From: Clostridium sp.
GTDB lineage: Bacteria; Bacillota; Clostridia; Lachnospirales; Lachnospiraceae
Reading direction: 5' to 3'
NCBI GenBank assembly: GCA_023667695.1
Contig: JAMOZY010000011.1
Coordinates: 1-64,000 of the forward strand
Length of the DNA stretch: 64,000 nucleotides
In this document: positions 1,238 to 64,000 of the stretch, piece after piece
Position numbering within the stretch: position 1 is the first letter of the stretch
Layout of the letters: each line of letters starts with the position of its first letter
Notes under the pieces: generated by a model
The model's database searches: none
What the model was told of the DNA's origin: nothing
The model's input: only the letters and a program-made list of their open reading frames with translations
Position numbers and translations under genes: made by a program

Positions 1238-2899
1238 TTATACACTACCATTATTTAAGTATAACTGATAAAATTTCTCAGAATCCTCCGGCTTTCCATA
1301 GAGATATCCCTGGATAAAGTCCAAATCCATCTCGGAAACCACATTCATTTCCTCATCTTCCTCTACCCCTTCCAGGCAAACCTTAATCCCTGCCTTATGA
1401 CACAATTCCACAACAACGCGTATAAAGGAAGAGTCAAAGCTGTTTTCTTTAATGTTCCGGACAAAAATCTTGTCAATCTTTACGATATCTGCCGGTGCTT
1501 CCTTCAGCAATCCAAGGGAGGAATACCCGGTTCCAAAATCATCCATCGCAATCTTCATGCCCATGGAACGCACAGAATCAAACACTCTCTTTAACAGCTC
1601 TTTATCGGATATAAACTTACTTTCCGTAATCTCCACAATAATATTTTGATAACTGATTCCCGCATCTTCAATACAAGAGTGCATAAAGTCAACAAACTGG
1701 GCATCAAATAACTGTAGATACGATACATTGATGCTCATGCTGAACTGTGGATAAATGCAGACCCAGCGGCGGCACATCTCCACTGCCTGTTGAAATACCC
1801 ACTTTCCAACCGGCTGAATCATCTCCGTCTTTTCCAGCAGCGGAATAAATTCCACCGGCGATACCTTGCCGTATTTCTCACACTTCCAACGCAATAACGC
1901 CTCTGCACCCTTCAGAACCTTGGAATCGGCATAGACCTGTGGCTGGAAGTTCAATTCGAAGTTTTCAAAATCATTCTCAATAGAATTCCGCAAAAGCTCA
2001 ATTAACTCTAATTCCCGTTCCTTATACTGAAGGAATTCCGGCTCGAAGTTAATCAGATGATTTTTACCCTGACGCTTTACAACATTGATTCCGACCTTTA
2101 ATGCCTTTACCATATTTTCATAGGTCATTCCGGTTTCATATTCATGGTAAATACCGGAAAAGGTACAATAGTAACGCTTCCCCTGTAAGTCCTTCTGGGT
2201 CTTATAATGGTTGGAAATCCGTTCAAATAATCCTTCTGCTTCTCCTGCCTGGGGACTTGTAATCAAAACACCGAATTCATCTCCGTCCAGACGGTATACG
2301 GAAGCATTGCTGTCCAAACGGCTTTGAATGTAAGTTCCGATTGCCCGTAATACACTGTCTCCAAAGGACTGGTCATATAGCTCATTAATATGATGAAAAT
2401 TATCAATATTCACTAATAAAATACCAAAAGGCATATTATCCTTAATTTTCTGCTTTGTTGTCTCACGAAAAGCATATTTATTCAAAAGACCCGTAATATG
2501 GTCCAGTTGATTCTGTCTGCCCAGATTCCGGATAATGCCTGCCAGCATAACCGGAGTTCCTTCCTCGTCAAAGCTGAGATAGGCGCGGCTTTCCATCCAG
2601 ACCCACTTCAGATTCCGGTTCAGGGCGCGGTACTGTAGACAAAATACCTGGGTTTTATTTTCAAACATGCTTAACAGACCATTTTTATACTTTGCCCGGT
2701 CTTCAATATGAATCCGCTCCAGCCATGCGTCAAAATAATTCCTGGCATAGTCCTGTGGCAGACCAAATTCCTCAATAAAATCATCTGGCAGCATTACTTC
2801 GTAATTGCGGGTTGGATGATTACAGACAAATACATAACCATCTATACTGTTACACATCGCCTGATAAAAGCTTTCGGTTTCCCAATTTGTCATATTCAT
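1238..2899 (-). CDS. PAS-GGDEF-EAL cyclic-di-GMP signalling protein
   Basis: A 553-residue cytosolic protein with no membrane segment. Residues 1-125 look like a PAS/PAC fold. The GGDEF domain (about 130-285) has LDGDEF in place of GGDEF, so cyclase activity is uncertain. The EAL domain (about 300-545) keeps the catalytic signature: EALLRW, VEITES, MDDFGTGYSS, VKID and the terminal QGYLYGKP. The likely net activity is c-di-GMP hydrolysis, perhaps tuned by GTP or ligand binding at the N-terminal domains. The start ATG overlaps the fumB stop in an ATGA junction, so it is translationally coupled to fumarase, which is an unusual partner. Confidence 0.9.
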   Translation of the reverse strand: MNMTNWETESFYQAMCNSIDGYVFVCNHPTRNYEVMLPDDFIEEFGLPQDYARNYFDAWLERIHIEDRAKYKNGLLSMFENKTQVFCLQYRALNRNLKWVWMESRAYLSFDEEGTPVMLAGIIRNLGRQNQLDHITGLLNKYAFRETTKQKIKDNMPFGILLVNIDNFHHINELYDQSFGDSVLRAIGTYIQSRLDSNASVYRLDGDEFGVLITSPQAGEAEGLFERISNHYKTQKDLQGKRYYCTFSGIYHEYETGMTYENMVKALKVGINVVKRQGKNHLINFEPEFLQYKERELELIELLRNSIENDFENFELNFQPQVYADSKVLKGAEALLRWKCEKYGKVSPVEFIPLLEKTEMIQPVGKWVFQQAVEMCRRWVCIYPQFSMSINVSYLQLFDAQFVDFMHSCIEDAGISYQNIIVEITESKFISDKELLKRVFDSVRSMGMKIAMDDFGTGYSSLGLLKEAPADIVKIDKIFVRNIKENSFDSSFIRVVVELCHKAGIKVCLEGVEEDEEMNVVSEMDLDFIQGYLYGKPEDSEKFYQLYLNNGSV

Positions 2900-3489
2900 T
2901 TGCCATAACCCCCTTCCTGCCGGTTACTTATTTTAATATGCTCTCTTTTATAGTCATCGACTGCTGTCTCATACAGATTATTTCCTTCAGAATCTGCAAC
3001 TACAATAACTGGAAAATCAACAACCTCCAGCCTTCGTATCGCTTCCGTTCCCAGGTCCTCATAAGCGATTACCTCTGCGCTTGTAATACGCTTGGAAAGC
3101 AAGGCTCCTGCTCCGCCTACCGCGGCAAAATATACGCTGGTGCATTCCCGAATTGCCTTCAATACCTCCAGTGAACGCTTTCCTTTTCCAATCATTCCGG
3201 ATAAGCCATGCTCCATTAATAAAGGGGCATATTTATCCATCCGGGAACTGGTGGTGGGTCCGGCAGAACCAATTACCTGACCTTCTCTTGCCGGTGTAGG
3301 TCCCAGATAATATATGATATTGTTCCGCAAGTCAAAGGGCGGTTCCTTCCCCTCCAGCATAGACTCATACATTCTTTTATGAGCCGCATCTCTGGCGGTA
3401 TAAATGGTTCCTGTTATATAGACATAATCTCCAGCCTGAAGAGTTTCTGCTATTTCCTTTGTCATGGGTGTTTTTATATGCTTTTCCAT
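2896..3489 (-). CDS. fumB: Fumarate hydratase class I, beta (C-terminal) subunit
   Basis: The 197-residue small subunit of a two-subunit [4Fe-4S] fumarase, which interconverts fumarate and L-malate. It matches the Fe-S hydro-lyase beta-chain family: TPMTKE near the start, GPTTSSRMDKYAPL around 85-98, and GGAGALL around 131-137. The ATG at 3487-3489 follows GAGGTGGG; the ATG four codons upstream lies inside that SD. It follows the alpha subunit by 53 nt and its stop overlaps the next start. The symbol reflects the subunit role; the same fold also occurs in tartrate dehydratase, so substrate is inferred. Confidence 0.88.
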   Translation of the reverse strand: MEKHIKTPMTKEIAETLQAGDYVYITGTIYTARDAAHKRMYESMLEGKEPPFDLRNNIIYYLGPTPAREGQVIGSAGPTTSSRMDKYAPLLMEHGLSGMIGKGKRSLEVLKAIRECTSVYFAAVGGAGALLSKRITSAEVIAYEDLGTEAIRRLEVVDFPVIVVADSEGNNLYETAVDDYKREHIKISNRQEGGYGK

Positions 3490-3542
3490 TTCCCACCTCA
3501 TACCTGTCTAAATACTTTCATTTTTCCATGCAAATGCCGTTC

Positions 3543-4385
3543 CTATAGCAGACGCTTTACATGGCGGTTTACGTGACAACAAATGTTTACTGCCAGCGGC
3601 ATGCCGGCAATATGGGTAGGATAGGTTTCAATATTGACTGTTAATGCGGTAGTCCTGCCACCCAGACCTCCCGGTCCGATTCCAAGCTGGTTTATCTCTT
3701 CCAGTAATTCCTCTTCCAGTTTACGGATATGAGGCAGCTTAGAGCCTTCCTCTATAGTTCTGGTTAACGCTGTTTTCGCCAAAATAGCACATTTCTCAAA
3801 ATCTCCTCCCAGCCCTACGCCTACTACCATAGGCGGGCAGGCATTGGGACCTGCATCCTTTACTGCCTGAAGAACCGATTCCTTTACACCTTCTACTCCG
3901 TCTGCCGGCTTCAGCATAAACACCCGGCTCATATTCTCGCTTCCAAACCCCTTCGGTACTACAAGAAGCTCTATCTGGTCACCAGGAACAATATCATAAT
4001 GAATGATTGCCGGTGTATTATCCTTTGTATTTTCCCGTATCAAGGGGTCCTTCACGACGGATTTCCGAAGATACCCTTCCCGATAACCCTGACGAACACC
4101 TTCGTGGATGGCATCCGACAGATTCATTCCTTCTATATGAACATCCTGTCCCAGCCTTACAAATACAATCGCCATTCCTGTATCCTGGCAGATTGGAATC
4201 TGGTCCTCTGCGGCAATTTCCATATTCTCCTTTAATTGTCCAAGAATCTGCCGGCCCAGTTCACTATCCTCGCTCTGTCCGGATTGTAACACCGCCTGCT
4301 TCATATCTGCGGATAAATATAGATTTGCCTCGATACACATTTCCTTTATATTCTCAATAATGGTATCTGTCTGTATGGTTCTCAT
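3543..4385 (-). CDS. fumA: Fumarate hydratase class I, alpha (N-terminal) subunit
   Basis: The 280-residue large subunit that carries the [4Fe-4S] cluster. PICQDTG (near residue 60) and GPNACPP (near 187) supply cluster cysteines; GPGGLGGRTTAL near 247 is also conserved in the family. The ATG at 4383-4385 is chosen because the Fe-S hydro-lyase family begins at MRTIQ; AAAGGAG lies 12 nt upstream. A TTG eight codons earlier sits before that SD. The SD overlaps the end of the preceding small membrane protein gene. L-tartrate dehydratase alpha is the main alternative. Confidence 0.88.
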   Translation of the reverse strand: MRTIQTDTIIENIKEMCIEANLYLSADMKQAVLQSGQSEDSELGRQILGQLKENMEIAAEDQIPICQDTGMAIVFVRLGQDVHIEGMNLSDAIHEGVRQGYREGYLRKSVVKDPLIRENTKDNTPAIIHYDIVPGDQIELLVVPKGFGSENMSRVFMLKPADGVEGVKESVLQAVKDAGPNACPPMVVGVGLGGDFEKCAILAKTALTRTIEEGSKLPHIRKLEEELLEEINQLGIGPGGLGGRTTALTVNIETYPTHIAGMPLAVNICCHVNRHVKRLL

Positions 4386-4405
4386 ATATGTAAAAAGCTC
4401 CTTTA

Positions 4406-4615
4406 TCAATCACCAAATAATTGCTCTTCATCTGTCGGCTCGTCCTTTTGGATTGTATGATTCTTTTTCCGGCTTATGAGTGCAGATAGCTTAAACAACA
4501 GCCATACAATCAGCAATATCGCCAATAATGCACCGATTCCGGCAAGTACATACAGCATGATACCATTCAGTGTATCTGCTCCATCTGTTAAATGCATTAA
4601 TTCCTTAAAGTCCAT
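4406..4615 (-). CDS. Small single-pass membrane protein upstream of fumarase
   Basis: A 69-residue protein of unknown function. A short polar head is followed by one hydrophobic segment (about residues 18-40, rich in Leu/Ile/Ala), then a basic patch SRKKN and an acidic tail ending EEQLFGD. This gives an N-out/C-in prediction. AAGGGGG precedes the ATG at 4613-4615. It is first in the fumarase operon, its stop lying 20 nt before the fumA start. The size and shape recall small membrane anchor subunits, but I see no diagnostic motif. Confidence 0.65.
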   Translation of the reverse strand: MDFKELMHLTDGADTLNGIMLYVLAGIGALLAILLIVWLLFKLSALISRKKNHTIQKDEPTDEEQLFGD

Positions 4616-11655: not shown

Positions 11656-12765
11656 TTATACATTCGCAGTACTGATATTAACAGGAAGCACAACATAACG
11701 ATAGCTTTCCTTTTCATCCTTTATATAACAAGGAGCTTTTTGATTAATGAAATAAATGCTTACTTCTTCATCATCGATAACACGAAGTGCATCCATTAAG
11801 AGCTTTGGATTAAATCCGATAATCAAATCCTTTCCTTCTTTTTTAATATCCAGTTCTTCATTCATAGAACCGATGGAAGAATCGATTTTCAGATAAATGT
11901 TATTATTATCAATATTGATGATAATCGGCTTCTTATCCGATTCTTTAATCAAAAGGGAAGCCCGGTCAATACAGTCTAAAAACTCTTTTTTATTAATATT
12001 GATTTTTGTCTCATAATCATTGGTGAGCATCTGGCTTATTTTATAATATTCACCCTCTAATAAACGGGAAACAACCTTCGTTTCATCAAATTCAAATAAA
12101 ATATGCTTATCTGTAAAATAGATATCTACAAAGCTGTCTGTTCCTCCATCTAATATTTTACTTACATCATTCAAGGTTTTTCCCGGAACAACAACCTTTA
12201 TTAATTCATGATTTTCTTTTAATTCTACATTACGAATAGATATTCTGTGTCCATCCAAAGAGACTACCTTCAGGTTATTTCCTTCGATTTCAAATAATTC
12301 ACCGCTCATGAGCTTGGTACTTTCATTTTCTACTGTTGAAAATATAGTCTGGCGGATAATTTCTTTTACTGTAAATTGTGACAAACTAATTCCTTTGCTG
12401 CGTTCCACCTCTGGAAGCAATGAAAAATCATCTCCTGATTTACCGGATATTGTGAATTTAGATTTTTCACAACGAATGACTGCCTGATTATTTTCATTGG
12501 TTTCAATTGTAATTTCACTATCTGGCAGTTTACGGATGATTTCAAAAAATAGCTTGGCATCAATTGCTATTTTACCGCTTTGTAATATCGTTCCATCTAC
12601 ATAGGTTTCAATTCCCAATTCCATATCCGTAGCGGTTAATTTAATTCTATCATCTGATTCAATCAGGATACATTCCAGAATTGGAAGAGTTGTTTTATTT
12701 GATACTGCTTTCATAACTGTGTTCACAGAAGAAAGTAAAACAGATTTTGAACATGCGATTTTCAT
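11656..12765 (-). CDS. dnaN: DNA polymerase III beta subunit (sliding clamp)
   Basis: A 369-residue three-domain clamp that encircles DNA and tethers the polymerase. MKIACSK opens domain 1, which holds SNKTTLPILECI, and the protein ends with a conserved strand near YRYVVLPVN. The ATG at 12763-12765 is chosen over an in-frame GTG seven codons earlier that overlaps the AAAGGAG SD. Separated from dnaA by the 285-nt region that carries part of oriC. Confidence 0.97.
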   Translation of the reverse strand: MKIACSKSVLLSSVNTVMKAVSNKTTLPILECILIESDDRIKLTATDMELGIETYVDGTILQSGKIAIDAKLFFEIIRKLPDSEITIETNENNQAVIRCEKSKFTISGKSGDDFSLLPEVERSKGISLSQFTVKEIIRQTIFSTVENESTKLMSGELFEIEGNNLKVVSLDGHRISIRNVELKENHELIKVVVPGKTLNDVSKILDGGTDSFVDIYFTDKHILFEFDETKVVSRLLEGEYYKISQMLTNDYETKININKKEFLDCIDRASLLIKESDKKPIIINIDNNNIYLKIDSSIGSMNEELDIKKEGKDLIIGFNPKLLMDALRVIDDEEVSIYFINQKAPCYIKDEKESYRYVVLPVNISTANV

Positions 12766-59198: not shown

Positions 59199-60464
59199 TT
59201 AAGCTTCCGGCGGCAGTTCTCCAATAACGCCGGTTCTTTTTTCTTTGGAAAGTCCGCCCGTCATATGAGACTGTCCGGTGTTAACGAATCTGGCCCGGAT
59301 AATGGAGTCCTCTCCATAGCGGGTGCGTATGCTGTCAATGGCGGAATTCAGCTTGGACAGCTTTTCGTTTTTCTCAGAGGAGAACAGGTTGTACTGCTGA
59401 CATTCCTCATTGGTAACGTGAGCGGTAGATACGCCAAGCTGGCGGATGGGTTCCTGATTCCAGATTTGGTCAAAAAGCTGACAGGCGGTTTCATAAATAA
59501 CTTCTGTTACATTGGTAGCCGTTAATAGCGTGGTCTGGTGGGACTGATGCTGGAAGTTATAATCCAGGATGGAAATGGATACTACGCTGACAAAGGCCTT
59601 GTCGGCCCGAATTCTGGCACCTACTGTTTCACAGAGAGAAAGCAGGAAGGTCTTTGCAGTTTCCGCATCCGTTACATCATAGGAAATGGTGAGAGAATTT
59701 CCATAGCTTTTGCTGGCGGCCTTGTGGTCCGTTACAATCTCCACATCCCGGCCGTTAGCGTAATTCCAGATGATTTCCCCATGCTTCTTAAAGTGATACC
59801 GCAGGGTATTTACATCACACCGGGCAAGCTCGCCAATGGTATGAATGCCCAGGCCATGCAGCTTCCGGCTGGTAGAGCGGCCTACGAAAAACAAGTCCTC
59901 GACTGGCAGAGGCCACATTTTATCCGATATCTCATCCGGGAACAAGGTGTGGACCAGATTCGGCTTTTTAAAGTCTGATGCCATCTTTGCCAGCAGGCGG
60001 TTGGAGGATACACCAATATTGACGGTAAATCCAAGCTCGGAGTTGATTTTATCCTTTAGGTATTCTGCAAATGCAACTGGCGAGCCATAAAGCCGGGTGG
60101 TGCCGGTCATATCACAGAAGGCTTCGTCGATACTGTATTGCTCTACCACAGGTGCGTATTCCCGAAGAAGCTCCATCAGTTTTCGGGAGTAGTGGACATA
60201 CAGGCCATAGCTGGGGGGAACGACCAGTAAATCCGGACATTTTTTTCTGGCACTGACCAAAGGCTCACCGGTGTGAATGTGATAAGTCTTGGCAGGAGTA
60301 GACTTGGCAAGAACAATGCCATGCCGGTTCTCTTCGCTGCCCCCGACAACAGAAGGAATGGTACGCAGGTCCAGGGCAGCAGGCTCCTCCTGTAAACGGT
60401 GGGCGGCTTCCCAGGAAAGAAAGGCACTATTTACATCTACGTGATAAATAATCGGTTCCGGCAT
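59199..60464 (-). CDS. dinB: DNA polymerase IV (Y-family, DinB)
   Basis: A 421-residue translesion polymerase. HVDVNSAFLSWEA (metal Asp), YSIDEAFCDMT with the catalytic Asp-Glu (near 111), then a little-finger domain (about 240-360). Thumb HhH near LHGLGIHTIGELA. The C-terminus TGGLSKEKRTGVIGELPPEA is extended. TAGGAG precedes the ATG. Upstream lies a palindrome resembling a LexA operator, so SOS control is plausible. Confidence 0.93.
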   Translation of the reverse strand: MPEPIIYHVDVNSAFLSWEAAHRLQEEPAALDLRTIPSVVGGSEENRHGIVLAKSTPAKTYHIHTGEPLVSARKKCPDLLVVPPSYGLYVHYSRKLMELLREYAPVVEQYSIDEAFCDMTGTTRLYGSPVAFAEYLKDKINSELGFTVNIGVSSNRLLAKMASDFKKPNLVHTLFPDEISDKMWPLPVEDLFFVGRSTSRKLHGLGIHTIGELARCDVNTLRYHFKKHGEIIWNYANGRDVEIVTDHKAASKSYGNSLTISYDVTDAETAKTFLLSLCETVGARIRADKAFVSVVSISILDYNFQHQSHQTTLLTATNVTEVIYETACQLFDQIWNQEPIRQLGVSTAHVTNEECQQYNLFSSEKNEKLSKLNSAIDSIRTRYGEDSIIRARFVNTGQSHMTGGLSKEKRTGVIGELPPEA

Positions 60465-60545: not shown

Positions 60546-60659
60546 GCTATTTTATCTTAGAATGCACGAGAAGTCAAAGAAGGTATCCGTGATAAAAAGA
60601 CAGTAAAAATGCGGAACAAAAGTTCCTGTTTATATGAATTCCCGCACCTTGTAGCTCTC

Positions 60660-60687: not shown

Positions 60688-60730
60688 CTTTGACAAAAAA
60701 GATTAAATTTCTACAAAGGAGGTGACACGT

Positions 60731-60904
60731 ATGAAGGTTGTTAATCCGGCAGGAAGAAATATGGAAACCGAGCAGCAGGCAGATTACTCTTTAAGAATGA
60801 GATGTAAGTGTTCTGGCGGTGCAGTTGCCAGCAGCAATACGAACAGCTGTGCCTGTGGCAGCTCCCCTGCTATCGTACAGACCAACGTATATTCAACTCC
60901 GTAA
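60731..60904 (+). CDS. Cys-rich RiPP precursor peptide
   Basis: A 57-residue peptide. A polar leader (about 1-22, with METEQQADYS) precedes a core with two CxC motifs: RCKCSGG and CACGSS, separated by an Ala/Ser/Asn-rich stretch, then a Thr/Tyr/Pro tail. AAAGGAGGT is 7 nt before the ATG. It is followed by a radical SAM/SPASM enzyme and an ABC exporter. Likely thioether or similar crosslinks on Cys. The closest named class I can suggest is the clostridial Cys-rich bacteriocins with CcpM-type maturases; not proven. Confidence 0.8.
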   Translation: MKVVNPAGRNMETEQQADYSLRMRCKCSGGAVASSNTNSCACGSSPAIVQTNVYSTP

Positions 60905-60980
60905 TAAATGGAGATTGCTTCTTAGATAGAAGCATTGTACCAACAAGGATATACGAAACCTGACATTGTACATGCAGGAG

Positions 60981-61009
60981 CCGGGCTGCAGCCATTTGTT
61001 GCAGCCCGG
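60981..61009 (+). terminator. Hairpin between RiPP precursor and maturase
   Basis: CCGGGCTGCA GCCATTTGT TGCAGCCCGG: a strong 10-bp GC stem followed by only TTTAT. A partial terminator that could keep precursor in excess over maturase. Confidence 0.65.
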
Positions 61010-61126
61010 TTTATACAGGCGGTGAATCCAGGTATCGTCGGATTGGCAGATGGTAAGAATAAAAGGTTTGCAAAAGCTGTTATAGCTCGTTTCTATGGGT
61101 GATTAGGTAAAAATGGAGGTATACAA

Positions 61127-62659
61127 TTGGATAAGCAGATAGAACAATTTAATGCATATTTTAAGGATATCGTAACAGATTCTATTGACCGATACGGGAT
61201 TCCCTTTGCTACAGAAAACTATAAGTATTTTTATGATACCGGTACAGGAAAGGTCTTACAGTGCGCAGAACCAACCTATCATCTGATATGTAATTTATTT
61301 GAAAATCAGGGAGCAGTAAATCCGGAGCAGCTGAATCTAAAGGAAGAAGAGTTCCTGTGTGCGGTTGATGAGCTGAAGGATGCCATTGAAACAGAACACA
61401 TTTTTAAAGCACAAAAATTTGACCGGTTTATTTGTACCCAGACTACGGATTTGGAAAACAAGGTTGGAAAGGCATGTCAGCAATTAATTCTGGAAGTAAC
61501 AGAAAAATGTAATTTGAGATGCCGGTATTGCATCTATGGTGATGAAACAAAGAATTTCAGAACCTTTGATACAAGAGATATGACCTTTGAAACAGCAAAA
61601 AAAGCAATGGATTATGCTTTAAGTATTGCTGACGACGAGATGGCTTTAGCCTTTTATGGCGGAGAACCGTTAATACAGTATTCATTAATGAAAGAATGTA
61701 CGGATTATTTTAAAGAGAGGTACAAAGGAAAAAAACTGTCACTGGTATTTACCAGTAATTTAACCTTGCTGACAAAAGAAATGGCGGATTATTTTAGTGA
61801 AAATAAATTTATGGTGACCTGCAGCCTGGATGGTGATTCGGAGAGCCATAATGAAAACCGGGTGTATTGTGGCGGAACCGGTTCCTTTGATGATACGATA
61901 CGGGGCTTAAAGCTGCTGGTAGAGGCTTATGGAGAGGATGCCAAAGAACATATTGCGGTCAATACGGTAATTGATAATCCTTTTTCTATAGAAAAATTCG
62001 AGAGGATAAATGACTTTTTTCATAGTCTGTCATGGCTTCCTAAGGATATGATTATCCGGGTTTCTTACGCAGCAAAGGATAAATGGAGTGAGGATACAGG
62101 GTTATCTGCGAATATAGAGTTAATGAAAAATAAAATGGTATTAAATGATTCATTTGTTGAATGGCTTTTTGATAAGGTAAGAAAACAGGATTCGAGGGTG
62201 TTTTCTGACAATCTTTTGAAAGAATCATTGATGGATATACATAAACGGGCGATAACGGATGAACCGTTGGAGGATTGTATTTTAAATGGCTGCTGTGTAC
62301 CCGGAACCAGGCGGTTGTATGTCAGAGTTGACGGAAAATTTTCTGTATGTGAAAGAATTGGCTGTTCTCCGGATATTGGAAATGTAGAGGAAGGAATCAG
62401 CCTGGAAAAAATAAAAAAGTATTATGTGGATGATTACGCAGAAAAATCTATAAATAATTGCAGCAATTGCTGGGCCGTTCAATTATGCGGCGTATGTTAT
62501 TCCAGATGCTTTGATGAAAACGGATTAGATAGGAAGCGGAAAAAGGTCTTATGTGAGAATAACCGGTTTGTTTTATATAATGCATTACGGCGATATCACA
62601 TGCTGTTAGAAGAACATCCGGAAATGTTAGAGGAATATAATGAAATCGAATTTAGCTAA
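61127..62659 (+). CDS. Radical SAM/SPASM peptide maturase
   Basis: A 510-residue enzyme. An N-terminal region (1-100) resembles the peptide-recognition part of RiPP maturases. The radical SAM cluster is CNLRCRYC (C128, C132, C135). The C-terminal SPASM region has paired cysteines: CCVPG, VCERIGC, CSNCWAVQLCGVC and VLCEN, enough for auxiliary Fe-S clusters. Start is TTG, with TGGAGGT 6-7 nt upstream. Expected to install thioether or C-C crosslinks in the Cys-rich peptide. Overlaps the transporter start by 20 nt. Confidence 0.88.
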   Translation: MDKQIEQFNAYFKDIVTDSIDRYGIPFATENYKYFYDTGTGKVLQCAEPTYHLICNLFENQGAVNPEQLNLKEEEFLCAVDELKDAIETEHIFKAQKFDRFICTQTTDLENKVGKACQQLILEVTEKCNLRCRYCIYGDETKNFRTFDTRDMTFETAKKAMDYALSIADDEMALAFYGGEPLIQYSLMKECTDYFKERYKGKKLSLVFTSNLTLLTKEMADYFSENKFMVTCSLDGDSESHNENRVYCGGTGSFDDTIRGLKLLVEAYGEDAKEHIAVNTVIDNPFSIEKFERINDFFHSLSWLPKDMIIRVSYAAKDKWSEDTGLSANIELMKNKMVLNDSFVEWLFDKVRKQDSRVFSDNLLKESLMDIHKRAITDEPLEDCILNGCCVPGTRRLYVRVDGKFSVCERIGCSPDIGNVEEGISLEKIKKYYVDDYAEKSINNCSNCWAVQLCGVCYSRCFDENGLDRKRKKVLCENNRFVLYNALRRYHMLLEEHPEMLEEYNEIEFS

Positions 62660-64000
62660 GCTTCAGCATATTTTTTCTCTGCTCTTCAGCTGTGCCAGGG
62701 GGGAAGCCATCCTTCTGGTTCTGCTTAGTGTGTTCAGCGGAGTTTACGCCTCATTGGGAGTGGTATTATGGAAGCTTATTATTGATGTGATTATGGAGGC
62801 ATTACAGACAAAGGAGCTGCGGAAGGTGATTCTTCTGTTGGTCTGCTATTTCATTTATACAGCCATGGAAACGGTTCTTACCCGAAGTATTGCTCATGTA
62901 CAGTGGAACTATACCGCTAAGCTGAATATCCGTCTGGGCGAGAAAATCATGGACAAAAGCTATTACATTGCTTATGAGGAATTTGACAAATCGGATACCT
63001 ACGATACCATTCGGAAGGTGAATAATGAGAGTATCGCCAGTATATCCACCCTGCTTCAGCAGGGAGAGACCGTCATTCAAAATGTAGTTTCCCTGATTAG
63101 TGTTATTGTGATTTTATCTCAGTTCAGCATCTTATTTGTAGTGATTGCCATTGCCGCTATCATCCCTATGATAATCATAGATGTAAAGATGGCGGAGAAG
63201 CTCTACGAGTTGAATAATGCATTAACAGAGCCAAGGCGGTATGCAGACAAGTTTAAGGGAATGCTGACGGATTACCTGAGCATAAGGGAAATCAAGGTCT
63301 ACAAAGCCTTTCATTATATTAAGGATAAGGTAGTTGCCTTACAGATGAACAGCTATGAGAAAGAGCGGAAGGTCAAGGGTGTTCAGCTGAAGGTGGATAT
63401 TATTATGAACACGGTATTTATACTCGTTTGCTATGGACTGAAGCTGGTAACGATATGTGTATCCGTCATGAGAACCTACACCATCGGAACCATTACCATG
63501 TACATAAATGCGCTGGATATGCTGGCGGATACGCTGCAGATGATTGTATATAATATAGCCGGGTTAAATGAAAATATGCTATACATCAACCTCTTGTTGA
63601 ACTTCCTGGAGAAGGAGGAAATAAAACCGGGGACGCTCTCCCTGGGACAGGAGATTGGTAGTATCCGGTTCGAGCAGGTTTCCTTCCGGTACCATGGACA
63701 GAGCCGGGATACCTTACAGCAGGTATCCTTTACTTTAAAAAAGAATAAATCCTATCTTCTTTACGGGGTCAACGGAGCAGGAAAATCGACAATATTAAAG
63801 CTGCTGCTTGGGCTTTATGTGCCGACGGAAGGCAGGATTCTGGTTGACGGTATTGACTTGCAGGATATCGATAAGGACAGTTACTATGACCGGGTAGGCG
63901 TAGTGTTTCAGGAGTTTAATAAATACCCGATGAATGTGCGGGAAAATATTGGCCTTTATGACAATGGGGATATGCAGAAGCTGGAGCAGGCAGCGGGGAA
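62640..64000 (+). CDS. ABC exporter, permease-ATPase fusion (cut by window end)
   Basis: At least 453 residues, continuing past the window. Six membrane segments span about 18-300; no N-terminal C39 peptidase domain is present, so leader removal needs another protease. The ATPase begins near 340 with IRFEQVSFRY, Walker A GVNGAGKSTILK near 376, and Q-loop VVFQEFNKYP. The signature motif lies beyond the edge. AGAGGA precedes the ATG inside the maturase gene. Likely exports the mature RiPP. Confidence 0.88.
   Translation, partial: MKSNLAKLQHIFSLLFSCARGEAILLVLLSVFSGVYASLGVVLWKLIIDVIMEALQTKELRKVILLLVCYFIYTAMETVLTRSIAHVQWNYTAKLNIRLGEKIMDKSYYIAYEEFDKSDTYDTIRKVNNESIASISTLLQQGETVIQNVVSLISVIVILSQFSILFVVIAIAAIIPMIIIDVKMAEKLYELNNALTEPRRYADKFKGMLTDYLSIREIKVYKAFHYIKDKVVALQMNSYEKERKVKGVQLKVDIIMNTVFILVCYGLKLVTICVSVMRTYTIGTITMYINALDMLADTLQMIVYNIAGLNENMLYINLLLNFLEKEEIKPGTLSLGQEIGSIRFEQVSFRYHGQSRDTLQQVSFTLKKNKSYLLYGVNGAGKSTILKLLLGLYVPTEGRILVDGIDLQDIDKDSYYDRVGVVFQEFNKYPMNVRENIGLYDNGDMQKLEQAAG

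Follow-up and report, generated by a model that had tools for sequence, protein, structure and literature searches.

A probable ruminococcin C-like sactipeptide cluster with an unusually short precursor in a Clostridium genome

Judged by sequence comparison, the genes at the right end of the window analysed here (the first 64,000 of the 87,836 bases of contig C2, in a genome of 2.99 Mb) very probably constitute a bacteriocin cluster of the RumC/CA_C0660 sactipeptide type, and not one of the SCIFF or CcpM type. All lie on the plus strand and encode a precursor peptide, a maturase, an ABC exporter, an M16 peptidase, an ECF sigma factor and a DUF4179 anti-sigma protein. The first-pass annotation of this DNA had recognised a RiPP cluster with a SPASM maturase, a reading borne out by the CX3CX2C motif and SPASM cysteine set of the maturase and by the match of the precursor to an HMM of its relatives. 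Its proposed comparison families, CLI_3235/CcpM and SCIFF, are not the nearest ones; that place is taken by RumC/RumMC, a characterised sactipeptide system with a solved structure (PDB 6T33). The cluster, from a bacterium of Lachnospiraceae type, is thus of a known, ruminococcin C-like kind, within which the peptide stands out as an unusually short form with a closer second cysteine pair and a shorter tail than ruminococcin C; it is not a new class. No published description of this cluster was found in the open-licence literature that we searched.

The precursor gene (60731..60904, plus strand) runs from an ATG at 60731 to a stop codon at 60902-60904, is preceded by a strong ribosome-binding site, AAAGGAGGTGA (60715..60725, plus strand), and encodes 57 amino acids. 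As the first-pass annotation had described, it contains exactly four cysteines in two CxC pairs, C25, C27, C40 and C42, arranged as CxC-x12-CxC. With an approximate boundary, the peptide divides into the leader MKVVNPAGRNMETEQQADYSLRMR and the core CKCSGGAVASSNTNSCACGSSPAIVQTNVYSTP, and the leader sequence MKVVNPAGRN conforms to a motif, MKxxNPxGR, that is common to the precursors of relatives. An HMM built from these relatives' precursors, with the present one left out, singled it out (E=1.5e-11) from 858 small open reading frames of the region, the next best reaching 0.086, and it is therefore not a chance reading frame. The curated CA_C0660 model NF035954 matches it at E=4e-6 (26.8 bits, below the cut-off of 60, which the tested sister precursors also miss at 17-41 bits), and a search of the whole genome with this model finds a single copy, this precursor. 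The RumC-family model NF035950 (cut-off 40 bits) gave no match to it at E<=1, whereas RumC-type control precursors scored 100-103 bits. The best PDB match of the precursor, an antibody chain at E=0.13, was dismissed as chance.

RumC is antimicrobial against Clostridium perfringens and is among the few sactipeptides with two hairpins. Both it (RumC1-5 with RumMC1-2 of Ruminococcus gnavus E1, PDB 6T33) and the present precursor have four cysteines, and the first CxC pair stands in the same register with the acceptor Asn retained: an ungapped alignment of core residues 25-38 (CKCSGGAVASSNTN) to a RumC paralogue (CKCSGGAVVENSHN) has 9 of 14 positions identical, CKCSGGAV being the same in both. The pattern as a whole is not identical to that of the solved RiPP, and such identity is what the first-pass annotation had said would refute its reading. 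The second pair is CxC here and Cx3C in RumC, the spacer has 12 residues instead of 16, and the tail has 15 residues after the last cysteine instead of 18, with almost no identity (1 of 15 in an ungapped comparison). The leader of the MKxxNPxGR type is also unlike that of RumC, and there is one precursor gene and one maturase gene where RumC has five and two. The leader and first CxC are those of the CA_C0660 family (NF035954), but most relatives have five or six cysteines with CxCxC second clusters, in contrast to the four cysteines and CxC found here. The common N-x-A-N stretch is missing from the tail, and a bare CxC second pair with a 15-residue tail occurs in only two of the 23 precursors compared, this one and a divergent one (L062) from an Aminicenantes assembly. 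Elsewhere, in a single genome, two loci about 3 kb apart (L136 and L138) carry separate reading frames, one similar to a leader with the first cysteine pair (MKLINPVERDVSTFKTQANLPCSCTC...) and one similar to a second half (CACQCSYGSTNYNSNDNLAKAARS); by their sequences, these appear to be a broken or split precursor.

The maturase gene (61127..62659, plus strand, TTG start) encodes a radical SAM/SPASM protein of 510 amino acids that resembles sactisynthases. Among its 68 NCBIfam matches the best curated model is NF035951 (RumMC) at 525.6 bits, which misses the equivalog cut-off of 720; other models score lower, with CcpM (TIGR04068) at 279.3, PapB at 143.8 and SCIFF (TIGR03974) at 103.5. SCIFF/CteB and CcpM/CLI_3235 systems have an RRE-rSAM-SPASM architecture that the maturase, with its putative RRE, would share, but membership in either was rejected. 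The SCIFF score falls far below its cut-off of 425, and the precursor has four cysteines, not six in 45 residues, which upholds the distinction from SCIFF peptides drawn in the first-pass annotation; the CcpM cut-off is 500. The published RumMC cysteine motifs are CX3CX2C and CX13GX4CX36CX2CX5CX2CX18C (PMC6779426), and the maturase matches this spacing exactly. Its C-terminal half is 43.5% identical to the counterpart from the RumC locus, with pieces at about 42-44%. In a tree of 52 rows it falls within a clade (98/95) with L023, L029, L025, L027, L042, L021 and L020, apart from a large group associated with six-cysteine precursors. Of these partners, L023 and L029 have RumC-like precursors, that of L023 scoring 100.3 bits and so exceeding the cut-off of the RumC family, and L025, L027 and L042 have precursors with a CxCSG first hairpin. 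The AlphaFold model (mean pLDDT 86.4) finds as its best PDB match CteB (5WHY/5WGG), over about 490 columns and nearly the whole length. A helix-strand region at the N terminus, modelled at a pLDDT of about 95, is putatively RRE-like; the match to CteB, which has an RRE, takes in nearly the whole protein. A single-protein search of genome contigs with the maturase returned no match, but an alignment-based search did find matches.

The exporter gene (62640..64406, plus strand) is cut by the window end at 64000, and its full reading frame on the contig encodes 588 amino acids comprising a permease and an ATPase. Pfam finds ABC_membrane and ABC_tran in the complete protein and no C39 peptidase, as the first-pass annotation had proposed from the truncated gene. 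It had also placed the protease in a separate gene or past the window, and extension of the contig indeed reveals an M16 zinc peptidase whose gene begins some 390 bases after the window stops (contig positions 64375 or 64390-65379, plus strand, 329 amino acids; PF00675 at 30.7 bits, cut-off 22.3). The same combination of a maturase, an exporter of about 600 amino acids and an M16 peptidase is found in the RumC locus, and about twenty further loci have it as well. We identify the RumC locus as L101 (M16 of 364 amino acids, ABC protein of 615) because its precursor matches solved RumC1 (PDB 6T33) at 2.6e-19. Since exporters of this size recur with M16 across relatives, the absence of C39 appears normal for the family, as judged in the relatives by exporter length only. 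The HxxEH motif and distal Glu of the M16 protein (H34, E37, H38 and E110) are invariant in all 13 aligned sequences. The protein is shorter than most homologues, the C-terminal half of its AlphaFold model is poor (mean pLDDT 56.6), and a frameshift was rejected as the cause of its length on inspection by eye, which revealed no homologous continuation in other frames. Foldseek matches the model to M16 proteins, including the AlbEF homologue 7y8u. In one near relative (L020, 4550-5938), a duplicated piece of the maturase N terminus, 50.6% identical across the first 87 residues, is fused in front of M16, and a lipoprotein-like protein of about 760 amino acids adjoins the maturase both there (2259-4520) and in L100 (7151-9451).

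The maturase and exporter genes overlap by 20 nucleotides, as do the exporter and M16 genes (about 20), an arrangement like that of a translationally coupled operon. Directly after the M16 gene lie genes for a TIGR02954-like ECF sigma factor (65562-66179) and a DUF4179/RsiV-like anti-sigma protein (66085-67290), both on the plus strand beyond the window, and this pair is possibly the regulator of the cluster. No obvious candidate for an immunity gene was recognised at the cluster. In the gap between the precursor and maturase genes, an open reading frame at 60935-61102 has no family match and no cysteine and was treated as non-coding. RNA from 60905-61030 folds at -50 kcal/mol (z = -6.0), with a 15-bp hairpin at 60978..61012 (plus strand) that might serve as an attenuator or an mRNA stabiliser; no riboswitch or other RNA family in the cluster was matched in Rfam. 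To the left of the precursor is a dinB-type polymerase gene (59199-60464, minus strand), and the interval between them contains a palindrome, GGAACAAAAGTTCC at 60613-60626, that resembles a LexA box (GAAC-N4-GTTC). Three relatives from the genus have an AGAAC-N4-GTTC box farther upstream of dinB. LexA-type control through the palindrome was set aside as a weak lead: the genome shows no enrichment of the pattern (11 occurrences versus 18 in a reversed control), and the 3.8-kb recA locus holds no exact LexA-like box, so SOS control is only a lead.

In the RumC-type cluster that we envisage, the maturase would bind the conserved MKxxNPxGR leader, presumably via its N-terminal recognition domain, and would install four S-to-C-alpha thioether bridges to give two small hairpins. 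The first-pass annotation called the thioether position unknown, which is literally correct, but homology to RumC makes S-to-C-alpha bonds a strong default. The first-hairpin bridges of RumC2 are Cys24-Glu31 and Cys22-Asn35 (PMC6779426), and mapping by position predicts C27-S34 and C25-N38 here. For the second hairpin, in which RumC1 has Cys26-Arg34 and Cys22-Lys42 (PMC8172795), the predicted inner bridge is C42-Q50, the positional equivalent of Cys26-Arg34. The outer acceptor in RumC lies at +16 and only 15 residues follow the last cysteine here, so the acceptor for C40 must differ: either it would be shifted, in which case we predict a residue around 52-55 with Y54 as best guess, or the second hairpin would have fewer bridges. 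It is a plausible, if tentative, proposal that the product is a minimal two-hairpin sactipeptide, with a core of about 33 residues versus 44 in RumC1, and that, given the CxC pair and the short tail, its second hairpin is re-registered and the outer acceptor has to be a new one. The C39-less exporter would carry the peptide out of the cell, and the M16 peptidase would cut off the leader, by analogy with the role that AlbF/AlbE are thought to play for subtilosin. RumC activity requires both the thioethers and leader removal (PMC6779426). The mature product of about 33 residues would probably be antibacterial against related Gram-positive bacteria. AlbE and AlbF are the peptidases of subtilosin, a circular peptide unrelated to this precursor; the subtilosin A cluster pairs its sactisynthase AlbA with AlbE/AlbF in the same logic as here, where a single M16 gene is present.

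Against a RumC-type identity, precursor and maturase both fall below every curated family cut-off, and the second hairpin lacks the Cx3C and tail of RumC. The shortness and partly poor model of the M16 protein, the lack of a recognisable immunity gene and the occurrence of the locus in a single genome of the genus also count against it. The same genes could form a ranthipeptide-type cluster, its maturase making S-to-C-beta/gamma thioethers as do PapB or the SCIFF maturase CteB, but we consider this very unlikely. SPASM thioether enzymes of both chemistries have a common fold, SCIFF peptides are listed as having beta/gamma thioethers (PMC8326336), and CteB is the best structural match; this match does not discriminate, however, because no solved RumMC was among the structure matches, whereas the PapB and SCIFF scores are far below that of RumMC and the maturase nests among RumC-type enzymes in the tree.

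A further alternative keeps the RumC-type chemistry and has only the first hairpin bridged, the second CxC being a disulfide, a metal ligand or free. The divergence from RumC does sit in the second cysteine pair and tail (CxC not Cx3C, 15 residues, no NxAN), and RumMC handles the two halves of RumC independently (PMC6779426). Yet both cysteines of the second pair are retained, second clusters containing CxC (as CxCxC) are common among sister precursors, and RumMC2 is able to introduce non-natural thioether bonds into engineered substrates (PMC8188230), so we regard single-hairpin bridging as unlikely. That the strain recently acquired a cluster that is now decaying and non-functional would fit its absence from seven other genomes of the genus and the short M16 protein, but every reading frame is open, the genes overlap as in a tight operon, and the cluster cysteines of the maturase and the zinc-site residues of M16 are intact; decay thus seems highly improbable.

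The RumMC-type maturase and the anti-sigma gene were absent from all seven other genomes of the genus that were searched, six of which retain dinB, and matches to the RumMC model at E<=1e-60 occur in 10 of 397 sampled genomes of the family, this one included. The RumC-type cluster is sporadic and has probably moved horizontally. The same genome carries a second peptide-maturation locus outside the window (L004 7508-12130; contig C9:19508-24130), with a CcpM-like rSAM protein (212 bits, below the cut-off), a grasp-with-SPASM-like second protein, an ABC ATPase and a permease; at 11963-12130 in this locus, a cysteine-rich frame of 55 amino acids, MACSNSWACAIICAGSLAGGCLVGCIATAGAG..., matches no NCBIfam family.

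The activation of RumC has been described as the work of trypsin in the gut (PMC6779426). The conserved trio of maturase, exporter and M16 peptidase suggests that RumC-type peptides have a leader peptidase of bacterial origin. A natural relative of RumC that keeps the first hairpin but has a shorter second hairpin offers a direct test of what fixes the bridge register in this enzyme family. If the product is indeed a minimal two-hairpin sactipeptide, then ring size within this one family of RumMC-type enzymes would be dictated by the peptide, and not by a fixed ruler.
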